A stretch of DNA of 64,000 nt from Gracilimonas sediminicola (lineage in GTDB: Bacteria > Bacteroidota > Rhodothermia > Balneolales > Balneolaceae): contig NZ_JANDBC010000001.1 in assembly GCF_024320785.1 (NCBI RefSeq), forward strand, positions 640,617 to 704,616, read 5' to 3'. The notes beneath the pieces are model-generated. The model had not been told where the DNA came from. It saw only the letters and a list, made by a program, of their open reading frames with translations, and made no database searches. Of this stretch, positions 146 through 45,911 are shown piece by piece. A program made the translations under genes and the position numbers. Each line of letters starts with the position of its first letter. Within the stretch, counting starts at the first letter, position 1.

Positions 146-193
146 GTAGTGGCGGGGGCAGGATTCGAACCTGCGACCTTCGGGTTATGAGCC
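146..193. repeat. attL: displaced 3' part of tRNA-fMet
   Basis: These 48 bp are identical to 45835-45882. On the minus strand they hold the tRNA from within the anticodon stem through the anticodon CAT, T arm and acceptor 3' strand. After 193 the match stops, so this copy lacks the tRNA 5' half and is not a functional gene. Confidence 0.93.
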
Positions 194-297: not shown

Positions 298-318
298 GTT
301 TGACCTATGTTGTACCCA
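298..318 (+). repeat. 21-bp subterminal direct repeat, left copy
   Basis: The 21 bp here (containing GACCTATGTTGTACCCA) recur exactly at 45782-45802 in the same orientation. The copies are 104 bp inside attL and 32 bp inside attR. They are likely arm-type binding sites for the integrase or its directionality factor; the role is inferred from position only. Confidence 0.7.
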
Positions 319-373: not shown

Positions 374-1591
374 ATGGCTTCTTTAAAGGTACTACTGCGG
401 ACAAATAAACAAAAGAAAGACGGCACCTCTCCCCTCGTCTTGCGGATTACGCACAACCGTAAATCACGGTATATATATTTAGGTCAATATCTGGAAGAGA
501 AGTATTGGGACTTTGATAATCAGCGTGTCAAAAAATCCCATCCCAATTCTAAGCGTCTGAATAATCTTATTCTAAAGAAATTGTCAGAAGCGAACGATAC
601 TGTCCTTGAGCTTGAGACCAAAGATGATCCGGTCTCTGTTAAACAGATCAAGAATAAGGTCAAAAACAGTAATGCTGATATAAGCTTTTTTGATCTGGGT
701 GAGAAACGTATCAAAGAATATGAAGATAAAGGTACGTTCTCAGTAGCCCGTGCCGATCAGTCGATCTTGAACAATGTTGAAAAGTTTAATGGTGGCAAAG
801 ACCTATACTTCCATGAGATAACCGTTTCCTTCTTAGAGAGATTTAAAACCTACTGCCTAACGGAACTCAAACACAAGAAGCGTACGGCCACAAATCAACT
901 GATGCTGATACGCACTCTATATAATAGGGCTATTAAAGAAGGTATTGTGGATGAGAAGAACTATCCCTTCGGTGGTGATAACGTCTCGATTAAATTGAGT
1001 TCTGGAAACAAGATTGGATTAACCGAAGAAGAAATCAGAACTATTGAAGAGATGGAGTTCGAAAAAGATACATCCATCTGGCATACAAAAAATATCTGGC
1101 TCTTCTCATTCTACTTCGCCGGAGTGCGAATATCAGATGTTTTATCATTAAGATGGTCTGACATTAAGAATGACCGTCTCTACTATGAAATGAGTAAGAA
1201 CGAAAAGCCTGTCTCTTTAAAGATCCCGGATAAAGCCATTGAGATACTAGAGGCATATAAACCCGATAAACAGTCTAAGAACGATTACGTGTTTCCTTAC
1301 TTAAAGGAAGCCGATCAAGATGATGAAGAGGATATATTTCGAAAGTCACGGAATGCGGCTCGTCTATTTAATAAGTGGCTGAAAAGAATTGCTGAGCAAG
1401 CTGAGATAGATAAGAACTTATCCAACCATATCTCCCGTCATTCCTTTGGTAATATTGCTGGAGAGAAGATTCACCCGCTCATGCTTCAAAAACTTTACCG
1501 TCATTCCAACCTTAAAACGACAATTAATTACCAGGCTAACTTCATCAATAAAGAGGCGGATGACGCACTTGATAAGGTCATAGACTTCTAA
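374..1591 (+). CDS. int: Tyrosine recombinase (element integrase)
   Basis: This is a site-specific integrase of the Bacteroidota arm-domain/SAM-like-5 type, 405 residues. The N-terminal arm DNA-binding domain (about 1-90) is followed by a core-binding helical domain (about 105-200) and the catalytic domain. Catalytic residues are visible: R252 in AGVRISD, H352 and R355 in HISRHSF, H377 in LYRHSN and the nucleophile Y386 in TINYQ. It starts 180 bp inside attL and reads into the element, the usual place for the enzyme that made the insertion. The 194-373 gap holds the 21-bp subterminal repeat and presumably its promoter. Length is normal and the gene looks intact. Confidence 0.95.
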   Translation: MASLKVLLRTNKQKKDGTSPLVLRITHNRKSRYIYLGQYLEEKYWDFDNQRVKKSHPNSKRLNNLILKKLSEANDTVLELETKDDPVSVKQIKNKVKNSNADISFFDLGEKRIKEYEDKGTFSVARADQSILNNVEKFNGGKDLYFHEITVSFLERFKTYCLTELKHKKRTATNQLMLIRTLYNRAIKEGIVDEKNYPFGGDNVSIKLSSGNKIGLTEEEIRTIEEMEFEKDTSIWHTKNIWLFSFYFAGVRISDVLSLRWSDIKNDRLYYEMSKNEKPVSLKIPDKAIEILEAYKPDKQSKNDYVFPYLKEADQDDEEDIFRKSRNAARLFNKWLKRIAEQAEIDKNLSNHISRHSFGNIAGEKIHPLMLQKLYRHSNLKTTINYQANFINKEADDALDKVIDF

Positions 1592-4156: not shown

Positions 4157-5647
4157 ATTGATCTCGACACAACCATACTAACCTTTCCAAATTCTGGTAA
4201 CACACCGGATGATATCTGGACACTTCGCGATGCGGTTCAAGGTGTTCAGGTTTTTGGTGGTATTGGGTCTGGTAAGTCTTCGGGGTCTGGTGCAACACTG
4301 GCTAAAAAGTATCTCTCCCTTGGTCTTGGTGGATTGGTTTTAACGGTTAAGCCTGATGAGAAAAACACATGGGTTGAATACTGCACCCAAACCAACCGCT
4401 TAGATGATCTCATTATCTTAGAAAAGGATGGTGAATACCACTTCGACTTTCTTGATTATGAGTACAATCGGTCGGGTGATGGCTCCGGCATTACCGATAA
4501 TATTGTGAATGTTCTAAAGACGGTTATACATGCCGGAAAATCAGAACAAGGTCAGATGGCTAATGAAGGGTTCTGGGAAGATGCTCTTGATATGCTTTTA
4601 TTCAACGTGGTTGATCTGTGTGTGCTTGCTCATGGCAAGCTTAAGATTGATGATCTGTACATTGCGGTTCAAAACCTTCCTAAATCTAAATCTGATGTTG
4701 TCCTACCAACATCAGATGCTGATGATCCGTTTGCTCAACTACTCTATCAGGCCAAGCTGAATGTTGCTCGTCAGGCCGAACAAAGAAAGCAGATATTTAA
4801 GAAGAATAATCCTGATAAAAGTTTTGATGTTAAGTCCGATAAAGGCTTGGCCTCTTTTAAAAAGGTCATGCATTATTTCATGTCTGACTTTCCGGGCTTA
4901 AGTGATAAAACTCGCTCGGTGGTTGAACACTCTTTTTTCGGTTTACTGTTTCGTCTGATCCGTGAACCGATTAAAAGTTTAATCTGCTCCTCTACGCCTA
5001 ACTTTTCTCCCGATGATTGTTTTAACGGTAAGATCATCCTGATTAATCTACCGATTAAACAGTTCGACAAAGTCGGTCGAGATGCTCAAATATTATTTAA
5101 ATATGTCTGGCAAAGAGCGATGGAGCGCCGGACAACTAATAACAATAAGATGCCCGTTTTTCTCTGGGCTGATGAGGCTCAAAATTTCCTCCATGAACAT
5201 GACATTGATTATCAGGCCACCGCTAGAAGCTCAAAAGTTTGTACCGTCTATTTGACTCAAAATCTGCCGAATTATTTTGCGCATTTAGGAGGGCGTTCTG
5301 GTGAGTTTCAGGTCAAAAGTTTTCTGGGGACAATGGGGACTAAAATCTTCCATGCCAATGCCGACATGGAGACAAATAAATACGCTTCTGATTTAATCGG
5401 TCAACAAGAGATTTGGAAGGAGAATAAAGGCTCACAATTTGTCGGTGGATTTACGATGTCAGAAGGCACATCTCAGGACAGAGATTTTGTTATTCATCCC
5501 GAAGATTTTACAGCCATGAGAACGGGTGGACCGATCAACAAATATCTGGTCGATGCCAGGATTCACAGGCAAGGCATGCCGTGGTTTTCTACAACAAGAA
5601 ATGACAGAAAAATCTCCTTCAAACAATTTATCAATAACAATAAATAA
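4157..5647 (+). CDS. Conjugal coupling ATPase (TraD/TraG-type)
   Basis: This type IV coupling protein would deliver the relaxase-DNA complex to a secretion channel. It has a Walker A motif GGIGSGKSSG (codons 4256-4285), Walker B FLWADEAQ, and the C-terminal TraM-recognition-like end (MRTGGPINKYLVDARIHRQG). The reading frame is open from 4136, just after an in-frame stop at 4133-4135, but has no ATG, GTG or TTG before the Walker A; the first TTG is at 4334, after it. The conserved-looking N-terminus (IDLDTTILTF) begins at an ATT codon at 4157, used here as the likely start, giving 496 residues. Alternatives are a +1 frameshift out of the preceding 196-residue gene, or a natural one-base indel. 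No N-terminal membrane anchor is present; the membrane gene downstream may supply it. Confidence 0.85.
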   Translation: MDLDTTILTFPNSGNTPDDIWTLRDAVQGVQVFGGIGSGKSSGSGATLAKKYLSLGLGGLVLTVKPDEKNTWVEYCTQTNRLDDLIILEKDGEYHFDFLDYEYNRSGDGSGITDNIVNVLKTVIHAGKSEQGQMANEGFWEDALDMLLFNVVDLCVLAHGKLKIDDLYIAVQNLPKSKSDVVLPTSDADDPFAQLLYQAKLNVARQAEQRKQIFKKNNPDKSFDVKSDKGLASFKKVMHYFMSDFPGLSDKTRSVVEHSFFGLLFRLIREPIKSLICSSTPNFSPDDCFNGKIILINLPIKQFDKVGRDAQILFKYVWQRAMERRTTNNNKMPVFLWADEAQNFLHEHDIDYQATARSSKVCTVYLTQNLPNYFAHLGGRSGEFQVKSFLGTMGTKIFHANADMETNKYASDLIGQQEIWKENKGSQFVGGFTMSEGTSQDRDFVIHPEDFTAMRTGGPINKYLVDARIHRQGMPWFSTTRNDRKISFKQFINNNK

Positions 5648-6645: not shown

Positions 6646-9324
6646 ATGATACGAATGTTTCAAAGTCAAACTGTGGAGCAGGCTAAGACCTACTTTAACG
6701 AAGCTCTCAGTAAGGCGGATTATTACATTGATGACCAGGAATTGAACGGACGCTTTCATGGAAAGCTGTCCGCTCGTCTTGGTATTGAAAATGATATTGT
6801 TGAACGCACTGTCTTTCACAAACTGTGTGATAACATTCACCCCATCACGGGGGACAATCTAACACCTCGAACGGTTGATAATCGCCGGGTTGGATATGAC
6901 ATTTCGTTTCACTGTCCAAAGTCTGTCTCCATCCTTCACGCCTTCGGTGATGACGACAGAGTTTTGGATTCCTTTAGAAAAAGTGTTCATGAAACAATGC
7001 GAGAAATGGAAGCTGATATGCAGACCAGAGTTCGCATTGATGGACAAAATCATGACCGAGATACCGGGGAATTATTATGGACAGATTTTATTCATCAAAC
7101 GGCAAGACCGGTTGATGACCATCCCCCTGATCCGCATCTGCATTGTCACTGTTTTACCTTTAATGCGACATGGGATGAGACCGAACATCGTATTAAGGCC
7201 GGACAATTTCATAACATCAAAAGAGACATGCCGTGGTACCAAGCCAGGTTCCAAAAAAGGTTAGCCGATAAACTGTCTGAACTGGGTTATGGGATACGAA
7301 AAACGGGCAGAAGTTTTGAGGTGTCAATCGTTCCCCAAAAAGCGATTGAGCACTTCTCAAAACGCACCAATGCTATTGGTCAAACGGCTAAAGAATTAGG
7401 CATTACTGATCCAGAAGAACTCGATCAATTAGGGGCGCGCACCAGAGGCAAAAAACAATCCTCACGATCAATGCCTGAGCTTAAAAAATCATGGGTCGGG
7501 CAGCTGAAAAATGTCGGCATAGATCACCACCTAAATGAAGAGATTGAAACCACGCTCCCAGACCTGAATTCAGGTCAATGTATTGACCATGCTTTGAGTC
7601 ATTCATTTGCTAGAAAATCGGTTGAACGAGACCGTAGAATTTTGGCTGAAGGATACCTGCATGGTATCGATTCAAAAGCCGTGTCATTGGATGACATTGA
7701 CCAAGCATTTGAACAAGATGATCGGGTATTCAAAGTCCCTGATGGGAAAGATAAATTATGTACCACTATTCCCGTGCAAGCGGAAGAAAAACGCATGGTT
7801 AAATTGGCAAAGGATATGCGAGGCACTGTCAATCCAATCAGCCCGATTATGAATGAAACCGTATTCGAGAATTTAAATGATGAACAAGCGGTTGCCGTCA
7901 AACATATCCTCAAATCCAACGACCGTTTGATAATGGTACGTGGTGGTGCGGGAACGGGTAAGACCACCATGATGAAATCGGCTGTCAAGCTCATAGAAGA
8001 GACTGAGAGACGTGTCTATGCCTTTGCCCCGACTGCGGACGCCTCACGGGACATGTTGCGCTCTGAGGGCTTTGAAAAGGCTGATACCGTTGCTCGGCTT
8101 TTAAAAGATGACAAGCTACAATCAGAGATTAAAGATCAAGTCATTTGGATTGATGAGGCCGGAATGCTTGGTACAAAAGATATGGGTGATATTTTAGAGT
8201 TAGCTGATGATCTGAATGCCCGGGTGATACTGACCGGGGATACTCGTCAGCACACGTCAGTCCAACGTGGTGATGCCATGCGTATCCTAAGACAGGTGGC
8301 AGGGATTCCAATCCCCTCTGTAAACCGTATCTATCGCCAAAAAGGAAAAGAATATCGTGAAGCTGTTGAGGCCATCAGTTCAGGGGATATATCAGGGGGA
8401 TTTGATAAACTGGAGTCATTGGGATGTATTGAAGAAATTGAAACCAATGACGTCTCAAAACAATTGGCCAATGATTATTTACAAGCCCAAAAAGAAAAGC
8501 GTTCTGCACTGGTGATCTCTCCCACCAATGAACAAGCTCAACTGGTAACGGATGGCATAAGACAAGGATTAAAAAACAGTGGTGAATTAGAAGACAAAGA
8601 TCGCCCCTACTCTCGATTGAAAAACCTCTACTATTCGAATGCACAAAAGAAAGACTGGCGTTCTTACTCTAAAGGTCAAGTTGTTCAGCTTCATCAGAAT
8701 ATGCCGGGATTGAAAAAGGGATCACAAGCCACAGTCAGTTATGTCGATGATAAGAACGTTAAGATCGCCCAAGATGGTCAGACGCATTCACTCGATTTAT
8801 TCCGCCCTGATGATTTCGATGTTTATAAATCTTTTGAGATTAATCTCTCTAAAGGTGACCGTATTCGCATTACCAAGAATGGCTTTGATAACAATGGCCG
8901 TCGCTTGAATAATGGTAAGATTTTGGAAGTGGACAGCTTTAGCCGTCAGGGTGATATTCGATTAAAGACGCCAAATCGCAGAAATGGCACTGTGTATGAA
9001 ATTGATAAAGGTTTTGGCAATTTCAATCATGCCTATTGTATTACTTCCTATGCCTCCCAGGGCAAGACAGTAGATCGGGTATTGATTGCTCAACCCTCTG
9101 CCACCTTCCCGGCCTCCAACATGAAACAGTTCTATGTTTCAGTCTCTCGTGGCCGTGAGGCTGTCAAAATCTATACCGATGATAAAAAGGATCTTCTGCA
9201 AACGATCCACAAAGAAGGTGACCGTATGTCAGTCCATGAACTTGAAGAGTTAGATCAAGGTCGTACCCAATCCAAAACAAAAACCATCACACCTAATAAA
9301 GGAGATTATGAACCGGATATCTAA
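6646..9324 (+). CDS. MobF relaxase-helicase (TrwC/TraI type)
   Basis: The protein nicks one strand at oriT and unwinds it for transfer. The N-terminal relaxase domain (about 1-310) has catalytic tyrosine candidates Y26/Y27 in ADYYIDD and the metal-binding three-histidine motif PHLHCH (H164, H166, H168). The C-terminal superfamily-1 helicase has Walker A GGAGTGKTT (433-441), a Walker B IDEAG and later motifs such as TGDTRQ and a VSVSRGRE motif VI. At 892 residues it is near the size of TrwC-type relaxases. An alternative start at M4 is possible. The oriT-like region lies immediately upstream. The element has this relaxase and a coupling ATPase but no visible mating-channel genes. Confidence 0.93.
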   Translation: MIRMFQSQTVEQAKTYFNEALSKADYYIDDQELNGRFHGKLSARLGIENDIVERTVFHKLCDNIHPITGDNLTPRTVDNRRVGYDISFHCPKSVSILHAFGDDDRVLDSFRKSVHETMREMEADMQTRVRIDGQNHDRDTGELLWTDFIHQTARPVDDHPPDPHLHCHCFTFNATWDETEHRIKAGQFHNIKRDMPWYQARFQKRLADKLSELGYGIRKTGRSFEVSIVPQKAIEHFSKRTNAIGQTAKELGITDPEELDQLGARTRGKKQSSRSMPELKKSWVGQLKNVGIDHHLNEEIETTLPDLNSGQCIDHALSHSFARKSVERDRRILAEGYLHGIDSKAVSLDDIDQAFEQDDRVFKVPDGKDKLCTTIPVQAEEKRMVKLAKDMRGTVNPISPIMNETVFENLNDEQAVAVKHILKSNDRLIMVRGGAGTGKTTMMKSAVKLIEETERRVYAFAPTADASRDMLRSEGFEKADTVARLLKDDKLQSEIKDQVIWIDEAGMLGTKDMGDILELADDLNARVILTGDTRQHTSVQRGDAMRILRQVAGIPIPSVNRIYRQKGKEYREAVEAISSGDISGGFDKLESLGCIEEIETNDVSKQLANDYLQAQKEKRSALVISPTNEQAQLVTDGIRQGLKNSGELEDKDRPYSRLKNLYYSNAQKKDWRSYSKGQVVQLHQNMPGLKKGSQATVSYVDDKNVKIAQDGQTHSLDLFRPDDFDVYKSFEINLSKGDRIRITKNGFDNNGRRLNNGKILEVDSFSRQGDIRLKTPNRRNGTVYEIDKGFGNFNHAYCITSYASQGKTVDRVLIAQPSATFPASNMKQFYVSVSRGREAVKIYTDDKKDLLQTIHKEGDRMSVHELEELDQGRTQSKTKTITPNKGDYEPDI

Positions 9325-16289: not shown

Positions 16290-16300
16290 GTGTTTATTAT

Positions 16301-17380: not shown

Positions 17381-17388
17381 GGTAAGAC

Positions 17389-18603: not shown

Positions 18604-18630
18604 AATTTTTTATTGTCCTCATATTTTTAT

Positions 18631-18972: not shown

Positions 18973-18988
18973 AACCTTTCTATTTAAG

Positions 18989-21046: not shown

Positions 21047-21061
21047 GGTTGTTGACTCTAT

Positions 21062-21577: not shown

Positions 21578-21592
21578 TGTGTCTCTCCTTGA

Positions 21593-23434: not shown

Positions 23435-23445
23435 GATGACCTTGC

Positions 23446-24741
23446 TTAGTTTTTAACATTCATTTGTTCGGGCGTGGTGTTGTAAGAGCCGGATAAATAC
23501 TCCAGATAAGCCACAGCCGTGTTTTGATCGGCGATAGATTGCTCCTGAGCCAATTGAAACTTGAGTAGTTTTTGTTGAAGTCTGAGTAGTTCTTCAAAAT
23601 CGGCAGAGGATGAGGTGTATTCTTCTAGAAGAATATCTATTGCCTGGCGAGCTCTCCTGATCTGAATATCTTTGTAGAGTTTATTACGTCTTTCTGCGTC
23701 TTTTAAATCTGTCAGGGCTTTTTCTAAATCTGTTTTAAGACTGTTTTCAACGGCTTGTTGTTGATCTTGGATAGATCTGTAATTCAGTTTGGCCTGTTTT
23801 TCTTGGGCTTGGTATTTCCCTCTCCATAAAGGAATTTTTACACCTAATTTGACCATAAAAGCATCATCACCGTTACCGGAGGGGTTCATATCGGTTCTTT
23901 CATCGGTAAAGATATAGTCGAAGCCGACACCAAATTTTGGCATTCCGCTTTTTTGAGCAACATCAATTGATCGTTGTGCAGACAGTGCTTGATAATCAAG
24001 TTTTGACAATCTTGGATTTCTCGAGAGTATCTGTTGTGAAAGCTCCACTTCATTTACTGTAAATGGTGTTAATGCTAATCTATCAGAGACCTTGACTGGG
24101 CTACTCTTATCTTGGTTAAGAAGTTCATTGAAAGCAATCTCATTTGTTTTGAGTTGATCTTTCAAAAGCTCTAACTGGACTTGCAGATCTTCTTTTTCAA
24201 TTTGTACCCTTAATACATCAACCTGACTGACTTGACCTGTCTCATAGCGTTGTAAAGAGAGATTTTCAAAGGTTTGCAGGATGTCGATATTTTCTTCAAG
24301 AATGTCGATAGACTGATGTAGTAAATAAAGTTTATACCACTGCTGTTTCACTTGGAAAAAGAGCTTATTGCGTGCTTCTTCAAATACTTCGAATTGAGAT
24401 TTAGCAAGCTCAGTAGCGACATCGCCTTTGGCCGAGAGCGTACCGAACCATGGGAACATTTGGTTAAGACCGATACGGCTTTGTTGCGGTCCAACTCTGG
24501 TTTCAATGGGTGAGATGAAATATCCAAAAGATAAATCCGGGTCAGGCAGTGCCGTTACCTGTGGCACTTGCTCCAAAGATGCACGGTATTTTGTAAACTC
24601 AGTCTTTAAAGTGGGGTTGTTTTCCCCAGCTATGATGAGGTACTCATCTAGCGACTGACCATGTGATACTTCTGGTATCAGTATGATAAGTGCCAGAGCA
24701 AAACTGGTAATGATTGATGTTACAATTTGATTATATCTCAT
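23446..24741 (-). CDS. cusC: CusC/TolC-type outer-membrane channel
   Basis: A 431-residue TolC-family protein, the outer-membrane exit duct of the tripartite copper/silver pump. It has a signal peptide (about 1-28, ending VSHGQ) and two repeats of long helices and strands, with the usual QEQSIADQNTAVAYLEYLSG near the end. No lipobox cysteine is visible. Its ATG overlaps the cusA stop as ATGA (24738-24741). The adaptor gene follows 11 bp downstream. Confidence 0.93.
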   Translation of the reverse strand: MRYNQIVTSIITSFALALIILIPEVSHGQSLDEYLIIAGENNPTLKTEFTKYRASLEQVPQVTALPDPDLSFGYFISPIETRVGPQQSRIGLNQMFPWFGTLSAKGDVATELAKSQFEVFEEARNKLFFQVKQQWYKLYLLHQSIDILEENIDILQTFENLSLQRYETGQVSQVDVLRVQIEKEDLQVQLELLKDQLKTNEIAFNELLNQDKSSPVKVSDRLALTPFTVNEVELSQQILSRNPRLSKLDYQALSAQRSIDVAQKSGMPKFGVGFDYIFTDERTDMNPSGNGDDAFMVKLGVKIPLWRGKYQAQEKQAKLNYRSIQDQQQAVENSLKTDLEKALTDLKDAERRNKLYKDIQIRRARQAIDILLEEYTSSSADFEELLRLQQKLLKFQLAQEQSIADQNTAVAYLEYLSGSYNTTPEQMNVKN

Positions 24742-27700: not shown

Positions 27701-28499
27701 TAACAACAGCTTGTTCTAAATCCTCAAGCTCTTTGATATATCCTAAACCTCTGACCAGATATTCAGCGTTATTGAGTTCCACTGTTCTGGCACCGACCTC
27801 ACTATTACTCTTTTTCACGGCATTAAAGACCTGAGGAAGCGTCACACCATAGACCTTCATGGAGTTTGGATTAAGCTCAATCTGATATTCTTGAATAAAC
27901 CCGCCGATGGAGGAAACCTCCGCAACGCCTTCAGCGCCGGAAAGCCCATATTCAACATAAAAGTCTTGAATACTTCTGAGTTCCTGAGGGTCCCATCCAG
28001 CTGCCGGGTTTCCCTCTTTATCTCGCCCTTCCAAAGTGTACCAAAAAATTTGTCCAAGCCCGGTAGCATCAGGGCCTAGTGTTGGTTTTGCATCAGCGGG
28101 AAGTGTTCCGGCAGGCAAAGCATTTAGTTTTTCGAGAATACGTGAGCGGCTCCAATAAAAATCGACATCCTCTTCAAAGATCACATAAATACTGGATGTC
28201 CCAATCATCGAACTGCTTCGGATGGTTTTAATACCCGGAACTGTTAATAATTCTGTTGTGAGCGGATAGGTAATCTGATCCTCAACATCCTGAGGAGAGC
28301 GTCCTGGCCATTCTGTGAAAACGATTTGTTGGTTTTCACCTAAATCAGGAATAGCATCAACGGGAACTGGGTCTCTGGGAATTGAATTAAGATTCCAATC
28401 AAATGGCGCTGTTGATAAACCCCACCCAACAAGCAGAGTGAGTAGCAAAACTGCCACCAATTTATTTTCAAGAAAAAATCTTATTGTTTTGTTTAACAT
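24738..28499 (-). CDS. cusA: CusA-type heavy-metal RND pump
   Basis: A 1253-residue inner-membrane proton-driven exporter of Cu(I)/Ag(I). RND marks are visible: N-terminal membrane helix, VDAIPDLGENQQIVFTEWPG, and membrane blocks with GIAIAIGTIVDMGVI (IDMG-like proton relay). It is about 200 residues longer than E. coli CusA. One insertion adds three or four membrane-like segments after helix 6 (about 530-650), another is a charged stretch after ISMFENLIQYK (about 745-790). Methionines and charged residues of the metal path cannot be assigned by eye. It opens the long minus-strand metal operon, whose promoter must lie in 28500-28659. Confidence 0.93.
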   Translation of the reverse strand: MLNKTIRFFLENKLVAVLLLTLLVGWGLSTAPFDWNLNSIPRDPVPVDAIPDLGENQQIVFTEWPGRSPQDVEDQITYPLTTELLTVPGIKTIRSSSMIGTSSIYVIFEEDVDFYWSRSRILEKLNALPAGTLPADAKPTLGPDATGLGQIFWYTLEGRDKEGNPAAGWDPQELRSIQDFYVEYGLSGAEGVAEVSSIGGFIQEYQIELNPNSMKVYGVTLPQVFNAVKKSNSEVGARTVELNNAEYLVRGLGYIKELEDLEQAVVKVSDNTPIRIQDVGFVTRGPGLRRGLLDKGGAEAVGGVVVARQGANPMQVINNVKAKIKEISPGLPSKTLQDGTVSKVEVVPFYDRGELIQETLGTLEEALTLQILITIIVIVVMVLNLRTSLLISAMLPIAVLMSFIAMRYFNVDANIVALSGIAIAIGTIVDMGVILSENMLRHMEEMDDDESLLEVIYNATTEVASAVLTAVTTTIVSFLPVFTMVASEGKLFKPLAYTKTFALVASIIIAITLIPPFAHWLFSIKVDKRKVKLGWNALLILTGILSLSFVTPWLGLALIGFGLINGGRLFVSHAHQQRMTYLNNVLTVAIVTWLLTKYWLPFGPSVSLTGNLIFVVGLIVIILAFFWFVIRYYAQLIRWCLEHKKSFLALPTSLVIFGVVAWLGFNSTFGFVAKGFDKVGVNIRTTSVWSSATHAFPGFGKEFMPALDEGAFLLMPTTLPHAGIEEVKDIVQKLDMRVSSIPEVKIAVGKSGRTNSALDPAPISMFENLIQYKSEYKTDENGRRVRFKVDNDGTYVRDDKGELIPDAGGEYYRQWRDHIQSTDDIWEEIVKATRIPGTTSAPKLQPIQTRQVMLQSGMRAPMGIKVKGPDLQTIDRFALQLEEKLQGAPGVKSQSVFADRIVGKPYLEINWNRKQLARYGLNIQDVQEFIAVGIGGMPLTTTVEGRERYPVRVRFGREFRDDPQKIAEMLVPTNTGAEVPLGQLASIDYRQGAQSIKSEDTFLVSYVIFDKVDGMAEVEVVEGVRAYLESQIDDGNLVVPSSVSYEFAGSYENQVRAEKRLSIILPIALFLIFLIMYFQFKSTATTGMIFTSIFVAWAGGFILIWLYGQPWFMDFSIFGQNMRELFQMGTINLSVAVWVGFIALFGIASDGGVVMATYLDQLFDKRKPKTIEEVRETVVEASSRRIRPTLMTTATTILALIPVLTSTGRGADIMVPMAIPSVGGMLFQVITLFVVPVLYAIWKEFQLNKSLPS

Positions 28500-30067: not shown

Positions 30068-30088
30068 AAGTAAACTATGAGTTTACAA
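30068..30088 (+). promoter_or_regulatory. AbiE operator 2, spanning the start codon
   Basis: The second palindrome (arms AAGTAAACT and AGTTTACAA, seven inner bases of each arm pairing) lies exactly 105 bp after the first. Its 3-base centre is the ATG of the antitoxin gene, so a bound repressor would cover the start site. Confidence 0.8.
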
Positions 30089-30847
30089 AATGACAAAAAG
30101 ATAATGTCACTCGTTGACAATTGGCCTAGCGGCATGGTGGCCACATCCACATGGCTGAAAGAGCTTGGTATATCCAGACAGCTTGTACAAAAGTATAAGC
30201 AAGGTGGCTGGATAAGCTCTGTTGGTAGAGGTGCCTATAGAAGAACAAATGAACAGGTCAGTGTATATGGCGCAGTCTATGCCTTACAAAAGCAGTTAGA
30301 ACTCGCCATACATATAGGTGGTGTCTCAGCACTCGATCAACATGGGGTAAGCCATTATCTCCGGCTGAATGAGAAAACACTCTTTCTGTTTTCCAATCAC
30401 CAAGAAAAGCTTCCGACGTGGTTTCGGAAATATCATTGGTCTAAAGAGCCGAACCATGTCACAACAAATTTTCTACCCTTGGCTATGGGTATAAGAGAGT
30501 TGGAGATAAACGGTTTTGAATTAAAGGTATCATCCACAGAAAGAGCCATACTTGAAGCACTCTACCTCACCCCTAAGCAACTGGATCTAGTTGAAGTGTA
30601 TCAGATCATAGAAGGATTACAGACACTCCGCCCGTCTTTGGTTCAAGAGCTTTTAGAAAACTGTAACTCAATAAAGGTTAAACGGCTTTTTCTCTATATG
30701 GCAGAGAAGGCAAATTTACCAGTCTTAAAGCATTTGAAGACGGATAAGATAGATGTTGGCTCCGGTGATCGTACAATCGTTTCACAAGGTAAATATGTTT
30801 CAAAGTATGGCCTGACCCTACCACAGGAGTTAGTCGATTATGCTTGA
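30077..30847 (+). CDS. abiEi: AbiEi-type antitoxin
   Basis: The 256-residue antitoxin and autorepressor of a type IV toxin-antitoxin pair. The N-terminal winged helix-turn-helix (MVATSTWLKELGISRQLVQK, about 20-39, then GGWISSVGRGAYRR) binds operator DNA; the C-terminal part (about 80-256) matches the AbiEi antitoxin domain with IHIGGVSALDQHG and a SSTERAILEALYL segment. The start overlaps operator 2. It overlaps the toxin gene by 8 bp. The pair gives phage resistance by abortive infection and also stabilises mobile elements. Confidence 0.93.
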   Translation: MSLQNDKKIMSLVDNWPSGMVATSTWLKELGISRQLVQKYKQGGWISSVGRGAYRRTNEQVSVYGAVYALQKQLELAIHIGGVSALDQHGVSHYLRLNEKTLFLFSNHQEKLPTWFRKYHWSKEPNHVTTNFLPLAMGIRELEINGFELKVSSTERAILEALYLTPKQLDLVEVYQIIEGLQTLRPSLVQELLENCNSIKVKRLFLYMAEKANLPVLKHLKTDKIDVGSGDRTIVSQGKYVSKYGLTLPQELVDYA

Positions 30848-31757
30848 ATCAAAATACAAATACCAAGTTGATCTGTTGATTGACGTTCTTCCCTATGTCG
30901 ATCAAGAAAAGTGCTTTGCCTTAAAAGGTGGAACAGCCATCAATTTATTCATCCGTGACCTTCCCCGGTTGTCGGTTGATATTGACCTGACGTATTTGCC
31001 TTTTGATGATCGTAATAAGGCTCTTCAAAATATAACAGAGGCTTTAAAACGTATTAAAGATGCTATTGAGACATCAATACCAGATGCAACGGTTAATGAG
31101 GTGGCTGACAGCAATGGTGGTGTTGCAAAACTAACCGTCCAAAAAGATAGAGCCCAAATTAAAATTGAAGTGAATACGGTTTTGCGGGGACACTTATATG
31201 ATACACAACCCATGCAGCTATCGGAGACCGTCCAGGACAGCTTTGGAAAGTTCGCTGAGATGACTGTTGTGTCTAAAGCAGAATTATTCGGTGGAAAGAT
31301 TTGCGCTGCTTTAGACCGTCAACATCCAAGAGATTTATTCGATGTCCATTATTTACTAGAAAACGAAGGTATTACAGAGACAATCAAATATGGATTTCTA
31401 TCTGCCCTGCTCAGCCATGGCCGACCAGTCCATGAGGTTATTGCTCCAAATTTTAAAGATCAAAAAGAAGCTTTTGAAAGTCAGTTTGAGGGCATGACGG
31501 ATGTTGAATTTAGTTATGATGATTTTGAGAGTACCCGTGTTCGCCTTGTAAAGGAAGTTCAGGCATCCCTGACAGATAGTGATAAAGAACTTCTGATGAG
31601 TTTTGTTGATGGTGAGCCGAAATGGGACCTATTTCCCCATGAGCGATTAAAAGATCTTCCGGGGATAAAATGGAAGCTCCTTAACATCGCTAAATTGATT
31701 AAAAGTGATCCTGACAAGAACAAAGAAATGCGGGATGCATTGATTGATAAGCTGTAG
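30840..31757 (+). CDS. abiEii: AbiEii nucleotidyltransferase toxin
   Basis: A 305-residue nucleotidyltransferase-fold toxin of the AbiEii/AbiGii family. Key motifs are visible: KGGTAINLFIRDLPRLSVDIDLTY (about 28-51; G-S/T and D-x-D, with D46 and D48), and AELFGGKICAALDRQHPRDLFD (about 145-166) with the conserved K and D. Toxins of this family modify tRNA acceptor ends with nucleotides. It is translationally linked to the antitoxin and the operon is followed by an unrelated gene 42 bp downstream. Confidence 0.93.
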   Translation: MLESKYKYQVDLLIDVLPYVDQEKCFALKGGTAINLFIRDLPRLSVDIDLTYLPFDDRNKALQNITEALKRIKDAIETSIPDATVNEVADSNGGVAKLTVQKDRAQIKIEVNTVLRGHLYDTQPMQLSETVQDSFGKFAEMTVVSKAELFGGKICAALDRQHPRDLFDVHYLLENEGITETIKYGFLSALLSHGRPVHEVIAPNFKDQKEAFESQFEGMTDVEFSYDDFESTRVRLVKEVQASLTDSDKELLMSFVDGEPKWDLFPHERLKDLPGIKWKLLNIAKLIKSDPDKNKEMRDALIDKL

Positions 31758-32502: not shown

Positions 32503-32721
32503 ATGATTTATAAACTCAAAGATATACCTCAACGGGGCACGCCTCTTAAAGATGAAGATATAACACTGGAACTGGCAGAGAAATGCCAACGTATTGTTGC
32601 AGAATTAGTCGTTAGTGAGGGACGTAAATACCTACCTTTATTTGAACGGGTCACCTCCGAACTTGAAAAGCTAAAAGAGCAAGATAGATTACTAAAATTA
32701 GCTCATCAGATTGCTTCCTAG
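32503..32721 (+). CDS. Small helical protein, integrase-associated copy 1
   Basis: A 72-residue helical protein with a YLPLFERVTSELEKLKEQDR segment. The next gene encodes a relative with the same YLPLFERVxxEl core. Such paired small proteins are common just upstream of integrases on proteobacterial elements; function unknown. The gap 32379-32502 holds nothing else I can name. Confidence 0.65.
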   Translation: MIYKLKDIPQRGTPLKDEDITLELAEKCQRIVAELVVSEGRKYLPLFERVTSELEKLKEQDRLLKLAHQIAS

Positions 32722-32833
32722 TATCAATTCCTTGATACGAAATTGGTATTACTCATTTCATAAATCCTTGTTGTAAAGCTACTGTGCGTAGCCATAAGAA
32801 ATTTATTTTGAGATAGTGCTCTGGGAGTTAATT

Positions 32834-33082
32834 ATGAACCAGAGAAATACCAAACATACTCATGCTGATGAACTAAGCATGGATGAGCTATATGATTGTT
32901 ATGAGACTCTTGCACGCATCGTAAAAAGATACGGCAAGGACTACTTACCCCTGTTTGAAAGAGTTCACAAAGAGATAGAATCAAGGAAAGCAGAAAACAG
33001 AATGGTTGACATAGCTCACCGAGTCGCAAAAAATAATGATAAAAGTGTTACACATTTTGGTACACAAAATGGTACACATTAA
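32834..33082 (+). CDS. Small helical protein, integrase-associated copy 2
   Basis: An 82-residue protein from the ATG at 32834 (MNQRNTKHTH), where an upstream ATG at 32816 would overlap a likely ribosome site. It shares KDYLPLFERVHKEIE with the 32503 product and is a tandem relative. Its last dozen residues (SVTHFGTQNGTH) are encoded by the 12-bp repeats at 33047-33082, so coding and DNA-binding-site functions overlap there. A TGTGCGTA motif lies 45 bp upstream. Confidence 0.7.
   Translation: MNQRNTKHTHADELSMDELYDCYETLARIVKRYGKDYLPLFERVHKEIESRKAENRMVDIAHRVAKNNDKSVTHFGTQNGTH
33047..33082 (+). repeat. Three 12-bp repeats, left cluster (GGTACACATTTT)
   Basis: Three consecutive 12-bp units (33047, 33059, 33071), all variants of GGTACACATTTT. 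The same cluster recurs at 33267-33302, each preceded by AAAAGTG. Likely arm-type binding sites of the downstream integrase. Confidence 0.85.
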
Positions 33083-33139
33083 AATTACCGAAAAAAATAA
33101 ACGTTATATATCAGATACTTAGTGTAAGTAATTTCCATA

Positions 33140-33162
33140 TTCGATTCCCTTCACCCGCTCCA
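33140..33162 (+). other. tRNA-Gly 3' end, likely core of second integrase att
   Basis: These 23 bases read as the 3' end of a glycine tRNA gene: T-loop TTCGATT, T-stem, acceptor strand CACCCGC, discriminator T and CCA. Nothing upstream forms the rest of a tRNA. It lies between the two 12-bp-repeat clusters and 150 bp before an integrase. The host tRNA-fMet nearby does not encode CCA, so this piece came from an organism whose tRNA genes do. Confidence 0.8.
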
Positions 33163-33266
33163 AAATTACGCACATATTTTTTTCAAAAATCCCACGTAAC
33201 ACCCTGAAATAAAAGTTTTTTCCCTTTAGCCTGTACACACACGGTGCGTTGTGTATTATCAAAAGT

Positions 33267-33302
33267 GGTACACATAATGGTACACATTTTGGTACACATG
33301 AA
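33267..33302 (+). repeat. Three 12-bp repeats, right cluster (GGTACACATTTT)
   Basis: Units at 33267, 33279 and 33291, 220 bp from the left cluster and in the same orientation. The last unit ends 12 bp before the integrase ATG, so integrase binding here could also repress its own gene. Confidence 0.85.
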
Positions 33303-33313
33303 AGGCTCAAGAG

Positions 33314-34591
33314 ATGAACCATTTGATAAAAAGAGGCGATAGATACTATTACAATCGACGAGTCCCAAAGGCTCTTTGGGATCAAATTGATAAGCAACTC
33401 ATTCGCATTTCTCTAAAAACAGACAGTAAAAAATTAGCTATTCGAAAAGCATCTAAAGTTAATGCTGAAATCGAGGCTTATTGGAACTCATTATTGAATA
33501 CAAATAAAACGCACAGTGATGAACGCTTTAAAGAAGCGGTGAACCTGGCCAAGCACGTCGGCTTTAATTATGCACCTGTAAATGATCTTGCATCAGGTAG
33601 TATTCGCGACATTGCAAAAAGAACTTCAGCAATTAAAAAACATGAGGGTAATCCAAAAGTAGTTAAAGCCGTTCTTGGCACAGTTAAGAAACCTGAGATT
33701 ACTCTAACACGTTGTTTAGAGATATTCTGGTCTATTACGAAAGACCGGGTCATGAATAAATCTGAAAAACAACTACGTGACTGGCGTAATACTAGGATTA
33801 GAGCGATTAATGATCTTAAATCACTGATTGGAGACAAAAGTATCGAGGCTCTAACTCGTCAGGATATGATTGAATTTAGAGACTGGTGGATTGACCGCAT
33901 CCAAAATGAGGGATTAAGAGCAAATACAGCCAATAAATATCTTGTCTTCATTAAGAATATTGTTGAGACCGTTTCAGATCATTTGAGCCTAAAAATTGAC
34001 CATCACCTGATTTTCAAGAAAATCACTTTAAAAGAAAAGAAGACAAAAAGCCGAAAGCCCTTTGATAAAGAATATATCAAGAGCGAATTGCTCAATAACA
34101 TTAAATCTGGTGACCTAAATGACCAAGCTAAAGCAATTGTGCTTATCATGGTAAACACAGGAGCAAGGCCTTCTGAAATTACTAATCTGGAAGAGGCTGA
34201 TATCAAACTTGACCATGAAATTCCTCATATTGTAATAAGAGAAAATTCACTACGTGAATTGAAGACGCAATATAGTGAACGACGTATTCCTCTTGTTGGA
34301 TGCTCTTTGGAAGCAATGAAAAAGTTTCCAAGAGGCTTCCCAAGATACAGAGGTAAGACTGACAGTTTTTCGAATTTAGTGAACAAATATCTGCGTCAAC
34401 ATGATTTATCGCCGACAGAGAGATATTCGTTATACTCATTACGTCATGGCTTCCAGGATCGACTAACTCGATCTGGTGTAAATGATAGAATGCAAGCTGA
34501 ACTTATGGGTCACAAATTCAATCGCCCTCTTTACGGAGATGGCCCTACTTTAGAAAACAAAGTCCAATGCCTTCAAAAAATTTGTATCTAA
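33314..34591 (+). CDS. Second tyrosine integrase (DUF6538-type)
   Basis: A 425-residue tyrosine recombinase of the kind common in Proteobacteria, starting MNHLIKRGDRYYYNRRVPKALW (DUF6538-like N-terminus). Visible catalytic elements are R in NTGARPSEI, the SLRHGF box (H-R), GHKF and the terminal Tyr in RPLYGDG. It differs from the left-end integrase in every domain and so has a separate origin. A presumed attachment core (tRNA-Gly 3' end) and arm repeats lie directly upstream. Its stop overlaps that of the convergent helicase gene by 4 bp. It looks intact and could act on tRNA-Gly. Confidence 0.92.
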   Translation: MNHLIKRGDRYYYNRRVPKALWDQIDKQLIRISLKTDSKKLAIRKASKVNAEIEAYWNSLLNTNKTHSDERFKEAVNLAKHVGFNYAPVNDLASGSIRDIAKRTSAIKKHEGNPKVVKAVLGTVKKPEITLTRCLEIFWSITKDRVMNKSEKQLRDWRNTRIRAINDLKSLIGDKSIEALTRQDMIEFRDWWIDRIQNEGLRANTANKYLVFIKNIVETVSDHLSLKIDHHLIFKKITLKEKKTKSRKPFDKEYIKSELLNNIKSGDLNDQAKAIVLIMVNTGARPSEITNLEEADIKLDHEIPHIVIRENSLRELKTQYSERRIPLVGCSLEAMKKFPRGFPRYRGKTDSFSNLVNKYLRQHDLSPTERYSLYSLRHGFQDRLTRSGVNDRMQAELMGHKFNRPLYGDGPTLENKVQCLQKICI

Positions 34592-36468
34592 TTATCAGCT
34601 GATAATTCAATAATTTCTTCTTCTGAGAACCATTCTTCGTTTAAGATATGCTCTTTTAAAGCCTCCGGTGCATTGGTGTAAGCAACAACAGCTAAGCTTT
34701 CTTTTGCTCTACTACACGTAACATAAAACAATCGTCGAGTTCTCTCTATACTGGTTTCTTTACCTTCCGACTCATTTCTGATATCCGTCCTCGTAGGTTC
34801 TTTTGCACCAAAAAGTTTCTCATAGCTAAACAAAAATCCTCTAGACTCTTCATCATCCATTATAACCATTACTCTAGGAAACTCTAATCCCTTAACACCC
34901 TGATGAGTACCGAATATTGCATCATCATTAATATAGATATGATAGTTTTCAAACTGACTAAAAGGTGATTCAATGGCACTAACAAATGCAAAAACATTTT
35001 TAAAGTCAACTGCCTCCGCTTCAATCTCTTCAGAGGATTCACTCCACTCAAAAGCTTGTTTCAATAATTCAGGGACATTGAATAGACCGGAATCTAGAAT
35101 TTTATTGATTATAGATTTCAATGTTGGGTCATTTCCCTCCTCCCATAGGGAGATAAGAGATTTGGTTTTTAAGTCCGCTTCTTCTAAGATATCGGTTTGA
35201 TTTTCCTTTTCTCGTATAATTTCAGGTTTAAAAAGTGGTGAGTTTCGTGTCACGACTCTCGATATTTTAAATGCATCATCGCTTCTGTGGCCTTTTACTA
35301 TTGGTAAAATAATGTCAGAAAAGAATCTCAACTCTGGAAGTGTGCCATCTAGAATTCCTGTTTTTAAACGGTCAGATGCATATAAGGGGTCAAAAAAATC
35401 TGAGAACCCCATTCTACTGGCCGCCATATGGTGCTCTAAAATTAAAGCCTTAACTTTAGCATCATTACCTGACCACAGCACATCTTCTGTAATGGAGGCC
35501 ATATCTTCCATTACTTTTTTCTCTATTTCTTGTTTATCGACATCTCCAGAAACAACAAAAAGCCTTACTATCCCATCGTTTGCTTCTTCGATCGCCTCTT
35601 GAATATGGTCATCATCATACGATCTTATTTTATTAATTAACTCGATTACCCTTTTAGGAGATCTGTAATTTATTTTCTTACTTGGTCTTTTCCAGTCTTG
35701 GGGTAACTGTTTCCCTAAGTCCTTTTTTCCATCCATATATATTCTTTGCATCATATCCCCAAATAGACCCAAAGAAAATTTTTTGCTTTTTTCTGATTGT
35801 ACCTTAAATAAAGCCTCAATCAGATCTTTATTAGTATCCTGACTTTCATCAATTAACAGAATTGGAAATTTCTGCGTTAGAATCTCTTTCATCATCTCAT
35901 TATCCGATAAGAAGTCGGAACACATTTTTATGACTTCAGTATGGTTTACGGAATCTCTTGAAAAATTATCTCCATTGGGGTTATAGCTGAACTTTTTTAT
36001 TGAGTTTAGATTTTCAAGTCTAACTCTTTTTGATTCAATTTTTTTAATTCTGTCAGCATGAGTTTTAGTTCCTTCTCTGCCTTTAGAAATCAATTCTTCT
36101 AGCTCTTCAATTCTAAGCTCAGTGTCTATTCTCAGCCACTCACGAATATCGTTTTGATATGACTGTATTAATGACCAGGCAAAACTATGAATAGTTGAGA
36201 CCGAGAAAAGGTTATCATATTCAAGTCGTGACAGGATCTCATCTCTTGCCCCATTTGTATAAGTTATAACTCCTATTCTTTGCCCTTTTAAAACCAACTT
36301 TTTCTTATAGCGATGTTTTAATGCATTTAATACTGAAACTAGAGAACGAGTTTTACCGGAACCAGCACCCGCAAAAAGGAAAAAGCTCTCTGGCTTATCT
36401 ATGCTCAGGTATCCTAAAAGTTCCGTATCCAATTCAGTTAATTCTGTTATGTTGAGTTTACTCATCAT
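34588..36468 (-). CDS. gajB: UvrD-like helicase (GajB-type)
   Basis: A 626-residue superfamily-1 helicase: Walker A AGAGSGKTR, motif II IDESQDTN, GLFGDMMQ, motif V THQGVKGLEFPRVMV, motif VI TRRLFYVTCSRAKE. In Gabija, GajB senses nucleic-acid ends made by phage or the GajA nuclease and depletes nucleotides. It is longer than the reference GajB (about 490 residues), with an inserted charged region (about 130-200). Its ATG lies 11 bp inside the GajA gene end, so it is expressed with it. Confidence 0.88.
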   Translation of the reverse strand: MMSKLNITELTELDTELLGYLSIDKPESFFLFAGAGSGKTRSLVSVLNALKHRYKKKLVLKGQRIGVITYTNGARDEILSRLEYDNLFSVSTIHSFAWSLIQSYQNDIREWLRIDTELRIEELEELISKGREGTKTHADRIKKIESKRVRLENLNSIKKFSYNPNGDNFSRDSVNHTEVIKMCSDFLSDNEMMKEILTQKFPILLIDESQDTNKDLIEALFKVQSEKSKKFSLGLFGDMMQRIYMDGKKDLGKQLPQDWKRPSKKINYRSPKRVIELINKIRSYDDDHIQEAIEEANDGIVRLFVVSGDVDKQEIEKKVMEDMASITEDVLWSGNDAKVKALILEHHMAASRMGFSDFFDPLYASDRLKTGILDGTLPELRFFSDIILPIVKGHRSDDAFKISRVVTRNSPLFKPEIIREKENQTDILEEADLKTKSLISLWEEGNDPTLKSIINKILDSGLFNVPELLKQAFEWSESSEEIEAEAVDFKNVFAFVSAIESPFSQFENYHIYINDDAIFGTHQGVKGLEFPRVMVIMDDEESRGFLFSYEKLFGAKEPTRTDIRNESEGKETSIERTRRLFYVTCSRAKESLAVVAYTNAPEALKEHILNEEWFSEEEIIELSADN

Positions 36469-38710
36469 TAGCCTCTGGTTTTATCGCTTCCTCAACAAAA
36501 TCCGTATTGCTAAGGCTAGTTTCGACCCAACTCAAACCATCTGAAATATAGTCAGGCACTTGTAATTCAGAAGGCTCTTGGTGAAAGAGTAAATCCAAGG
36601 CGAAATCACCTTTATTACCTTTTCTAAGAGAGTCGAATATCTCTTTACTCGTAGTTTCCAGGTCATCAAGGTCTAGTTGGTCTTTGAATTTCTTGATAAG
36701 TCCAACCCCGTCAATTTTTTGAAAGATTTCTACATTTTGATAAAGCAAAGAATCTTCGAATGTATATGGGATTATCTTTTTGGGGGCTTTTTTGGAACCA
36801 AGATTTATCCAAGTTTGATATGCTACTCTAACTAACTTGTCTTCAGATACTTTTCCATCATCTCCCAGATCAACCAACTCATCTACTTTCTGTAGTTCAG
36901 GTAACCAATTTTTTATTGTATAATTTTGGGTTTCTTGATCCTCTCCATGTTTTGGAACACATGCCTTCAATTTACCTTTCTCCCCCTTTTGACCGGAATC
37001 TAAATCAGTAATAATAAGAGTGATAATTCCTAAATTCTCAATCAATGGTCTCAATCTATGAGCATGGCTCCCTCCTATTTCCAAAATTGAAATATAAGCT
37101 GATGTCAATTTGGGAAAATGGTTTTCAATAAAATGTGGTAACAAGACTCTTTCAGCCGTTCCCTCAACTAAAATTACCGCATCAGCAAAGAATAGATCAG
37201 AATGAGTAGTTTTTAGATACCTAATCGCAAACTTTGGGGTCTCATCATCCTCCCCAAAAGTATCAGATAAATTGATAATGACTGAAATTGGTGCTTCACT
37301 TTTTGATTGTGATGGCAATCTCTTGAAGTATCGTAAGCTATTGAAGTCAATTTCATGAGCTATATGATTAGAGTGAGTACTTATTACCAACTGAGTACTA
37401 AAACCTTCCTTATCATTACCTTCATCATCTCTAAGATTCTCATTAAACCTAAGAACATCATACGCCTTCCTCACAAACACTTGCTGTACTTGTGCATGTA
37501 AATGTGCCTCTGGTTCTTCAATTAACACTAAATGTAGTGGTTCGTATTTTATCTCTTCGAGTGAGTTAAAATCTTCTGCCTCTATTTTACCAACCTTCAT
37601 CCAATCATCTCGGTATCTAATCAACTTGAATACCATTGATATTAAATTCTGATACCCAAGTCCGTTATATATCTCGGGTAAGCTGATTGGATTATCTTTA
37701 TCAGAATCATCCTCCATCAAACCAAATTGAACTGCTGACTTATGGTTAAGACTATCTATTGGTTTAACTTCGGATGATATATTGATATTTGGATTACCAA
37801 ATCCTGGATAGTTTAGCTCTTCTAGTTCAGTCAAAGATGAGTTAAAACTTTCTTTTAGAGTCTCATCAAATATTTTTTTCGCACTTTCTATAGTCTCTAA
37901 TGCTTTTATATCTGATACGTTTGGTTTGTCAGTCGGATTTAAATGTTTAGAAAAATATTCTCTTAATTGTGTTGATAAACTACCATAATTCTGTGCTGTA
38001 TCATTCGGATCTGAAAAGCCTCTTTGAGCATTTATTATATCTATTCTTATTAGTCCCTCAAAAGGATTGCTCTCTATCGGTGTACTATCTTCACTGAGCT
38101 TTTGAAGAACTGCATTGCCTTTATCAACCTTCTCTATTTTGTCTGGATCTAGCAAATATGCACTAACATTGAAGTGTGAAATTAACCCCTTCTTTTCTAG
38201 ATAATCCCAAATAGTAGCTGGCCAAAGCTTTAAATCTGATTTTGCTGACTCCTTTATCTTTTGAGCATCTTGATAACTGCTACGGTAGTCTTTATATAGC
38301 TTTTCTATATCTTTCGGCTCAATGACAAGCCTGACTCCCAATAGTCCACCTCTCCAACTCAGTTTAGGTATAAGGTTGCTGACATATTGTATTTCATTGC
38401 TTTTTACTTGAAGCCAAACATCTAATTTTGGCATTAATTCATGCCATTTATCCAATGAAAGGTCTGGCTCTTCCTCTTCTATATGAGTTGCCCAAGAAAT
38501 TCCTATTTCATTAATCTGTGACCAATTTGAAAGAGTAATATCCTTCGTTTTAAACCGGTTTTTATCTTTAAGGAAACTTATTAGTGCATCCATTGCAGAA
38601 GTTTTACCGCTATTATTAGCACCAACAAATAAAGTCTGTTTTTCAGAGAAGCTTAATCTGCATGATTTTAATTTTCTAAAGTTTTCTATTTCAATAAAAT
38701 CTATTTTCAC
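36458..38710 (-). CDS. gajA: OLD-family ATPase-TOPRIM nuclease (GajA-type)
   Basis: A 750-residue OLD-family protein: N-terminal ABC-type ATPase with GANNSGKTSAM (about 31-41), a long helical middle, EEPEAHLHAQ (Walker B, about 380) and STHSNHIAHEI (H-loop). The TOPRIM nuclease follows, with DAVILVEGTAERVLLPHF and LIITDLDSG as its metal-binding acidic residues. GajA of Gabija has this order but is about 580 residues; the extra length is in the helical middle and C-terminus. Paired with a UvrD helicase, it best fits a large Gabija-like system. Confidence 0.88.
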   Translation of the reverse strand: MKIDFIEIENFRKLKSCRLSFSEKQTLFVGANNSGKTSAMDALISFLKDKNRFKTKDITLSNWSQINEIGISWATHIEEEEPDLSLDKWHELMPKLDVWLQVKSNEIQYVSNLIPKLSWRGGLLGVRLVIEPKDIEKLYKDYRSSYQDAQKIKESAKSDLKLWPATIWDYLEKKGLISHFNVSAYLLDPDKIEKVDKGNAVLQKLSEDSTPIESNPFEGLIRIDIINAQRGFSDPNDTAQNYGSLSTQLREYFSKHLNPTDKPNVSDIKALETIESAKKIFDETLKESFNSSLTELEELNYPGFGNPNINISSEVKPIDSLNHKSAVQFGLMEDDSDKDNPISLPEIYNGLGYQNLISMVFKLIRYRDDWMKVGKIEAEDFNSLEEIKYEPLHLVLIEEPEAHLHAQVQQVFVRKAYDVLRFNENLRDDEGNDKEGFSTQLVISTHSNHIAHEIDFNSLRYFKRLPSQSKSEAPISVIINLSDTFGEDDETPKFAIRYLKTTHSDLFFADAVILVEGTAERVLLPHFIENHFPKLTSAYISILEIGGSHAHRLRPLIENLGIITLIITDLDSGQKGEKGKLKACVPKHGEDQETQNYTIKNWLPELQKVDELVDLGDDGKVSEDKLVRVAYQTWINLGSKKAPKKIIPYTFEDSLLYQNVEIFQKIDGVGLIKKFKDQLDLDDLETTSKEIFDSLRKGNKGDFALDLLFHQEPSELQVPDYISDGLSWVETSLSNTDFVEEAIKPEANDE

Positions 38711-39124: not shown

Positions 39125-39469
39125 ATGAATAAGCCAGAAATCGTCTATAAGCCAAAATCCAGACAGGATTTTTTAGAAGATGTGGTCGGTGACCTTGTTC
39201 GACTTAGACACGACAAAGGTATGACCCAAGAAGATTTGAACCATAGGATCGGTGTAGCTGATCGTCTGGTAAGCAAATGGGAATGTGGTATCAGAACCCC
39301 CACGTCTTTTAACTTGTACTGTTGGGCTGATGCTTTGGACGGAAAACTAAAAGTAGTTCCTAACCCGGAACGTCCTATTAAATCAAAATCAGGACAAATG
39401 GGTTTTGTCGATTACAACGACACATATGAAATTACGGCTGATAAGAACCAAGTGGCTATGGCCGCTTAA
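39125..39469 (+). CDS. XRE-family helix-turn-helix regulator
   Basis: A 114-residue protein with a classic HTH_3 domain (LVRLRHDKGMTQEDLNHRIGV...SKWECGIRTPT, about 22-60) and a short C-terminal tail. The ATG follows an AAAGGAG site. It sits between the Gabija-like pair and the restriction-modification operon and is a good candidate for the repressor acting at the shared TTGTGC-type sites. A hairpin terminator (39508-39537) follows. Confidence 0.88.
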   Translation: MNKPEIVYKPKSRQDFLEDVVGDLVRLRHDKGMTQEDLNHRIGVADRLVSKWECGIRTPTSFNLYCWADALDGKLKVVPNPERPIKSKSGQMGFVDYNDTYEITADKNQVAMAA

Positions 39470-39537: not shown

Positions 39538-39667
39538 TTGCGTTGCGGTAAAAATTTTAATGAGGGCAAGGCTGATATTCGGTGGGGAATCGCCCAGTCT
39601 GCACAAATGATAATGCGGAAGATTGGGGATACCGAATAGCACTTGTATAACCTTGCGGGAATGTTCT
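39538..39667. other. Gene-free GC-rich spacer
   Basis: About 130 bp between the XRE terminator and the RadC stop with a GGTGGGGAATCGCCC stretch and no ORF. It could encode a small structured RNA; I see nothing firm. Confidence 0.3.
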
Positions 39668-39675
39668 TTAGAATA

Positions 39676-40129
39676 ACCCCTTATTTCTCAACGATGTGTA
39701 GCCACCAGGTGTAAGTATTAAATGGTCATCAACCGGAATACCTAAAAGCTTTCCTCCCTCATTCAGTCGCTTTGTAAGGCTAATATCGGCACTACTTGGT
39801 TTTGTGTTACCGGACGGATGATTGTGAGCCAGTAAAATGCTATTGGCCGCCGATTTGATGGCGTAAGCAAATATCATTTTAGGATCAACAATTGTGGCTG
39901 TTGCCCCTCCTTTGGATATTTCAGCTAATCCCTTAACGCCTTTGGCATTATCAAGAAACATGACATAGAAGGACTCTACTAGCTCCATTGTCCCTTCTCG
40001 CCAATTCTCACGAAATATTTGATGGGCTAAATCTGGATTGGTTACAACCGGGCGATCAAAATCTCGTCTGTCGGTGATATACACCAATTCAACCTCAGTG
40101 ACTTTAAATAAATCTATTCTCTCTGACAT
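39676..40129 (-). CDS. RadC/JAB-domain protein
   Basis: A protein of about 150 residues with the RadC JAB metalloprotease-like motif: LAHNHPSGNTKPSSADISLT (H-x-H, S, D). It starts at MSERIDLFKV, where a near-perfect AAAGGAGG ribosome site lies upstream; an upstream in-frame ATG at 40174 is less likely. It lacks the N-terminal HhH region of chromosomal RadC, as is usual for the short forms on mobile and defence islands. The frame stays open to a stop near 39668. A TGTGCGTA motif is 60 bp upstream. The role of such proteins is unclear; it is often suggested to be in recombination or plasmid transfer. Confidence 0.88.
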
Positions 40130-40251
40130 AAAACCTCCTTTAATAGATTTGGAGGCATTTATATCCCTAATCATGGGGTATTAGTACGCACATTGCTCTT
40201 TAATTAATAGTATTGTAGGATGACACATCTTGACACTGTTTTTTATTATTA

Positions 40252-45781: not shown

Positions 45782-45802
45782 GTTTGACCTATGTTGTACC
45801 CA
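45782..45802 (+). repeat. 21-bp subterminal direct repeat, right copy
   Basis: Identical to 298-318, same orientation, 11 bp after the last element gene and 32 bp before attR. Confidence 0.7.

Positions 45803-45834: not shown

Positions 45835-45911
<77 letters not shown>

Follow-up and report, generated by a model that had tools for sequence, protein, structure and literature searches.

In the 64-kb window of Gracilimonas sediminicola DNA that was analysed (the whole stretch, not only the features under study), a tyrosine integrase gene, int2, is preceded by what looks like a complete attachment site, attP2, and both lie inside a 45.7-kb element integrated at tRNA-fMet by a different integrase, int1. 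The question arises what role a second, unsplit attachment site could play within an element that is already integrated elsewhere. From our point of view, an intact phage-type attP, its cognate DUF6538 integrase and small partner genes probably make up the locus and form, together with a Gabija defence system, unsplit cargo of a mobilizable element at tRNA-fMet; this module would have come from outside the phylum, would be idle here and might offer a potential second route of insertion.

The element at tRNA-fMet

A preliminary description of this DNA had proposed that a larger element at tRNA-fMet carries the second site, and the borders bear this out, as 48-bp repeats are found at both ends and the element possesses its own integrase (Table 1). 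Since one arm site, of a type other than that of attP2, lies just inward of each end of the element, the system of int1 (system 1) is split and in use, whereas that of int2 (system 2) is unsplit cargo. With border repeats, a border integrase and a relaxase, the nearest relative of which stems from Runella, the element is an integrative mobilizable element; it is called mobilizable because both a coupling protein and a MOBF relaxase are present. No VirB4-like match was found among the ORFs searched, which were a subset of those of the element.

Table 1. Features of the tRNA-fMet element and of the block around attP2 (positions in the window)
Feature	Position	Strand	Remarks
Left 48-bp repeat of the tRNA-fMet 3' part	146..193		one element end
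System 1 arm site (TTTGACCTATGTTGTACCCA)	299..318	+	left end
int1, tRNA-fMet integrase	374..1591	+	Arm-DNA-bind_5 / SAM_5 domains
TraD/TraG-like coupling protein	4334..5647	+	
MOBF (TrwC) relaxase	6646..9324	+	with helicase domain
sORF1	32503..32721	+	72 aa; small helical protein family neighbouring this integrase family
sORF2	32816..33082	+	paralogue of sORF1; likely start 32834; 3' end contains left arms
attP2 left arm cluster	33046..33079	+	three TGKTACACA repeats, 12-bp spacing, inside sORF2 3' end
attP2 core	33140..33162	+	identical to the 3' end, including CCA, of tRNA-Gly(CCC/TCC) of other bacteria
attP2 right arm cluster	33266..33299	+	three TGGTACACA repeats, 12-bp spacing
int2	33314..34591	+	DUF6538-type tyrosine integrase, 425 aa; catalytic residues present
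GajB	34588..36468	-	Gabija defence helicase; tail-to-tail with int2
GajA	36458..38710	-	Gabija ATPase-TOPRIM nuclease
XRE-type regulator	39125..39469	+	last gene of the block common to the sister element
System 1 arm site	45783..45802	+	right end; system 1 properly split
Right 48-bp repeat within tRNA-fMet	45835..45882		other element end; gene 45838-45911, minus strand

attP2 and its integrase

Two clusters of three 12-bp repeats around a tRNA-Gly 3' end with CCA had been described upstream of an integrase, and they were found again exactly there. The left arms read, in order, TGTTACACAT, TGGTACACAA and TGGTACACAT at a spacing of 12 bp, the 23-bp core is TTCGATTCCCTTCACCCGCTCCA, and the right cluster consists of three copies of TGGTACACAT, with the start of int2 15 bp downstream of its end. 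Relative to the core, the arms stand at -94/-82/-70 and +103/+115/+127. No further triplet clusters of 9-mers with a period of 12 exist in the 64-kb window, and 40 simulated first-order Markov sequences, each as long as the window, contained none. The site combines arm-type repeats on both sides, a cognate integrase nearby and a core that matches a tRNA gene's 3' end in every position. The C-terminus of sORF2 consists of the translated left arm repeats, as in the phage fragment L345, so that the end of this gene overlaps the attP arm.

The int2 product joins a DUF6538 N-terminus (PF20172) to a Phage_integrase catalytic domain (PF00589), and these domains together with the conserved R/K/R/H/H/Y residues identify it as a DUF6538 tyrosine integrase. 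R285, K317, R377, H378, H400 and Y407 are invariant across seven relatives, and we take them to have the catalytic roles that are familiar from tyrosine recombinases in general. The named relatives derive mostly from alphaproteobacterial plasmids and phages (~22-40% identity) and include some Microcystis and Pseudomonas phages; the integrases of a Roseicitreum plasmid and a Dinoroseobacter phage are among the closest known DUF6538 tyrosine integrases. From viral contigs, 80 homologues were kept. Among 244 genomes of the class and 395 sampled genomes of the phylum, int2 occurs only in the host genome and in one congener (G005), and a search of genome contigs with int2 returned a single distant relative. 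The earlier label of a proteobacterial-type integrase consequently holds in the sense of an affinity and no further, given the alphaproteobacterial relatives and the absence of int2 from the 395 phylum genomes otherwise.

An intact attP rather than a half site

Many int2 homologues have a period-12 array ~40-150 bp 5' of the integrase, the motif of which differs between members. In the related attP sites of viral contigs, the left arms lie ~66-101 bp before the core and the right arms start ~89-135 bp after it, and the arm-to-core distances of attP2 agree with those in the congener (-95/+101), the phage L345 (-98/+98) and L364 (-95/+110). What such a site looks like upon integration can be seen in the prophage contig 3300029924_000028, one end of which (L072) holds a complete tRNA-Ser(GCT) and three arms followed by the integrase, and the other end (L084) three arms followed by a partial tRNA end. 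As three arms are found at each end, integration splits them 3+3. L345, a fragment with tail-fibre and other phage genes, holds all six arms around one core, with the small gene before and the integrase after them, and its left arms are located inside the 3' end of the small gene as they are here; L310, L356 and L364 are likewise unsplit. In view of the 3+3 split in the integrated tRNA-Ser relative, the unsplit arms of attP2 argue for an intact attP and not for a half site, in line with what the preliminary description had suggested.

The attP sites of DUF6538 integrases in viral contigs (L345, L105/L112, L364, L072/L084) share with attP2 the 12-bp arms, usually three per side, the tRNA 3' end as core and the conserved spacing, and the modules share with int2 the integrase family and in many cases the small partner gene. 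The difference lies in their location, as such phage or satellite sites are found in phage genomes or split at element ends, whereas attP2 is unsplit inside another integrated element.

It could be argued that the repeats mainly serve as operators for int2 and the small genes, or as a decoy for phage integrases, and that recombination is no longer their purpose. Some integrases control their own promoter, and the right cluster is positioned 15 bp 5' of int2 while the left cluster falls within sORF2. Given that the tRNA core and the phage-like geometry have been retained, however, and that the arms are divided between both ends in an integrated relative, we regard this as very improbable. Arms on both sides of one core would also be expected at the junction of two like elements integrated in a nested or tandem fashion, in which case the site would not be an attP at all. 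Such an arrangement needs outer copies of the core, however, and neither the window nor the whole genome contains a second copy with up to three mismatches; moreover, the sister element of the congener combines this layout with another core. With no second core in the genome, a nested or tandem insertion, to which hardly any chance can be given, is dismissed.

The target of attP2

tRNA-Gly genes with the 3' end ascribed to the core do exist elsewhere: the exact 23-mer closes a complete tRNA-Gly gene in 43 of the 120 viral contigs that hold it, and the anticodon of these genes is mostly CCC or TCC. The tRNA-Gly genes of the host, with GCC and TCC anticodons, both lack the CCA, and their 3' ends differ from the core in at least 4 of 23 positions, which rules them out as the target of attP2. 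When one mismatch was allowed, the core turned up among the 244 genomes of the host class at this site only, apart from a CTCCG variant in a single genome, so that it is essentially without a target among the searched relatives.

We most likely deal with a phage- or satellite-type integration module that was captured from outside the phylum and would have arrived as a circle or in phage form. Lacking an attB, the int2 module would be unable to act in this host and hence idle. The fMet integrase, in turn, would excise the element as a circle, and int2 might insert this circle at tRNA-Gly(CCC/TCC) in another host, which would amount to a second, host-dependent route. As such, the complete module could provide the element with another way of insertion; no copy of the element integrated at tRNA-Gly was found.

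The block around attP2 and its counterpart in a congener

The congener carries a sister element at the same tRNA-fMet (C6, ~260,970-336,600), and int1 is found in exactly two of the 244 class genomes, the same two as int2. Between the two elements, int1 is 98% and the relaxase 95% identical, and the backbone DNA 90-93%. The sister block follows the same order, from the small gene through arms, core and second arms to int2, GajB and GajA, with XRE at some distance beyond them, and shows amino acid identities of 56% for int2, 62-63% for GajB and GajA, 65% for sORF1 and 77% for XRE. Its arms read TGGGTTACA, and its core likewise differs from that of attP2. Since the identity within the block (56-77% of amino acids) is far below that of the backbone, the comparison suggests that each of the two elements acquired its block, or had it replaced, separately (n = 2); it is also conceivable that an ancestral block diverged fast instead of being acquired independently.

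For the sister core (..CTCGTACGGGGCACCA), no convincing tRNA counterpart was found: viral contigs and plasmids gave nothing, and class genomes only sequences that deviate at 2-3 positions. None of the contigs with the sister arm motif held an int2 relative, and the gene downstream of the sister block, used to seek an empty site, is absent from congeners. A RadC gene of the sister element (G005 C6:330717-333645) is 93-95% identical to window positions 39668-40174, and a second, partial RadC copy is present there as well; RadC marks the backbone beside the cargo zone.

The block in the window has a G+C content of 35.7%, compared to 42.0% in the element backbone and 44.2% in the host flank, and that of the sister block is 35.1%. 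Adjacent GajA and GajB genes make up its Gabija system (PADLOC E values of 4.3e-281 and 1.1e-246), and the nearest plasmid relatives of GajA are alphaproteobacterial (45%). No Gabija system adjoining this integrase was found in viral contigs. Direct repeats of at least 11 bp are missing at the block flanks of either element, and inverted repeats were not detected at the block borders in the window.

The main alternative is that the Gabija cassette reached the fMet element through recombination, be it illegitimate or homologous, and brought along a piece of phage or satellite DNA carrying int and attP, so that int2 and attP2 would now be without a role and bound to decay. Gabija alone could maintain the block, which shares its cargo zone with genes for AbiE, restriction-modification and metal efflux, and both the absence of the target tRNA from the genome, and essentially from the class, and the repeat-free flanks would fit such a passive uptake. 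However, the integrase is intact, six arms are present and the spacing is phage-like in both elements, and the block is the only cargo seen to be common to both sisters in the variable zone. We therefore consider this alternative possible, but rather unlikely.

Relation to known integrative elements

Multi-integrase elements (PMC5882170) and integrative plasmids that keep an intact attP (PMC4739549) are already known. The tripartite ICE3 of Mesorhizobium has three integrases and three attachment sites (PMC5882170) and, like the present element, unites several integrases and attP sites for different chromosomal sites. ICE3 has its targets available in the host and separates into three dispersed parts (PMC5882170), whereas only one of the two systems described here has a target, the element stays in one piece and the second module strongly differs between the sisters. 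Consequently, not all integrases have used host sites as in ICE3, since attP2 remains unsplit and the genome offers no target for it. The integrative plasmid pHS87b is circular, also exists integrated and resembles our case in that an intact tRNA-matched attP adjoins int (PMC4739549). Unlike here, it has one integrase and one target, and this target is present in its host (PMC4739549). The present element hence stands apart in that its second module is complete and foreign, has no target in the host and has strongly diverged between sister elements.

If the preferred reading of a captured, complete module is followed, the two elements suggest that islands of this kind acquire reserve integration systems from phages or from distantly related bacteria. 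Mobile islands are usually classed by one integrase and one target. An element in which a constant first integrase is combined with a swapped, foreign and complete second attP-integrase module would illustrate by what means islands alter or extend their range of hosts and sites, and it would tie a defence system, Gabija, to that exchangeable block as well. One could further speculate, and tentatively so, about a family of two-key islands with a constant integrase for the near-universal tRNA-fMet and an exchangeable int-attP cassette that stems from phages or satellites associated with other phyla. By means of this second key, the whole excised island would dock at tRNA-Gly or another tRNA in hosts of other phyla, and the fMet attP would stay intact there.

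Accompanying genes

sORF1 and sORF2 belong to a family of proteins of 55-85 aa with the motif YLPLFERL that are encoded beside DUF6538 integrases, usually convergently downstream of the integrase and sometimes upstream of attP. Pfam, PHROGs and NCBIfam returned no match for the family members tested, and homologues of the small gene were absent from plasmid and phage collections and present beside int2 relatives in viral contigs. A function of the small gene product as excisionase was considered; this label is unsupported because the predicted fold is a two-helix hairpin without HTH.

A hairpin without an Rfam match lies 3' of the XRE gene in both sister elements (39563-39660 in the window, ~6820-6920 in L058), and its structure is conserved while the sequence of the stem is altered between the sisters. 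Large cargo of the metal-efflux type, comprising a CusA/AcrB-like pump, a CusB-like protein, a P-type ATPase and an ArsP permease, occupies positions 15858-28499. An AbiE toxin-antitoxin pair and an Eco57I-like restriction-modification set (30077-31757 and 40300-45771) adjoin the Gabija block, and the end of the element that carries these three systems is rich in defence genes.
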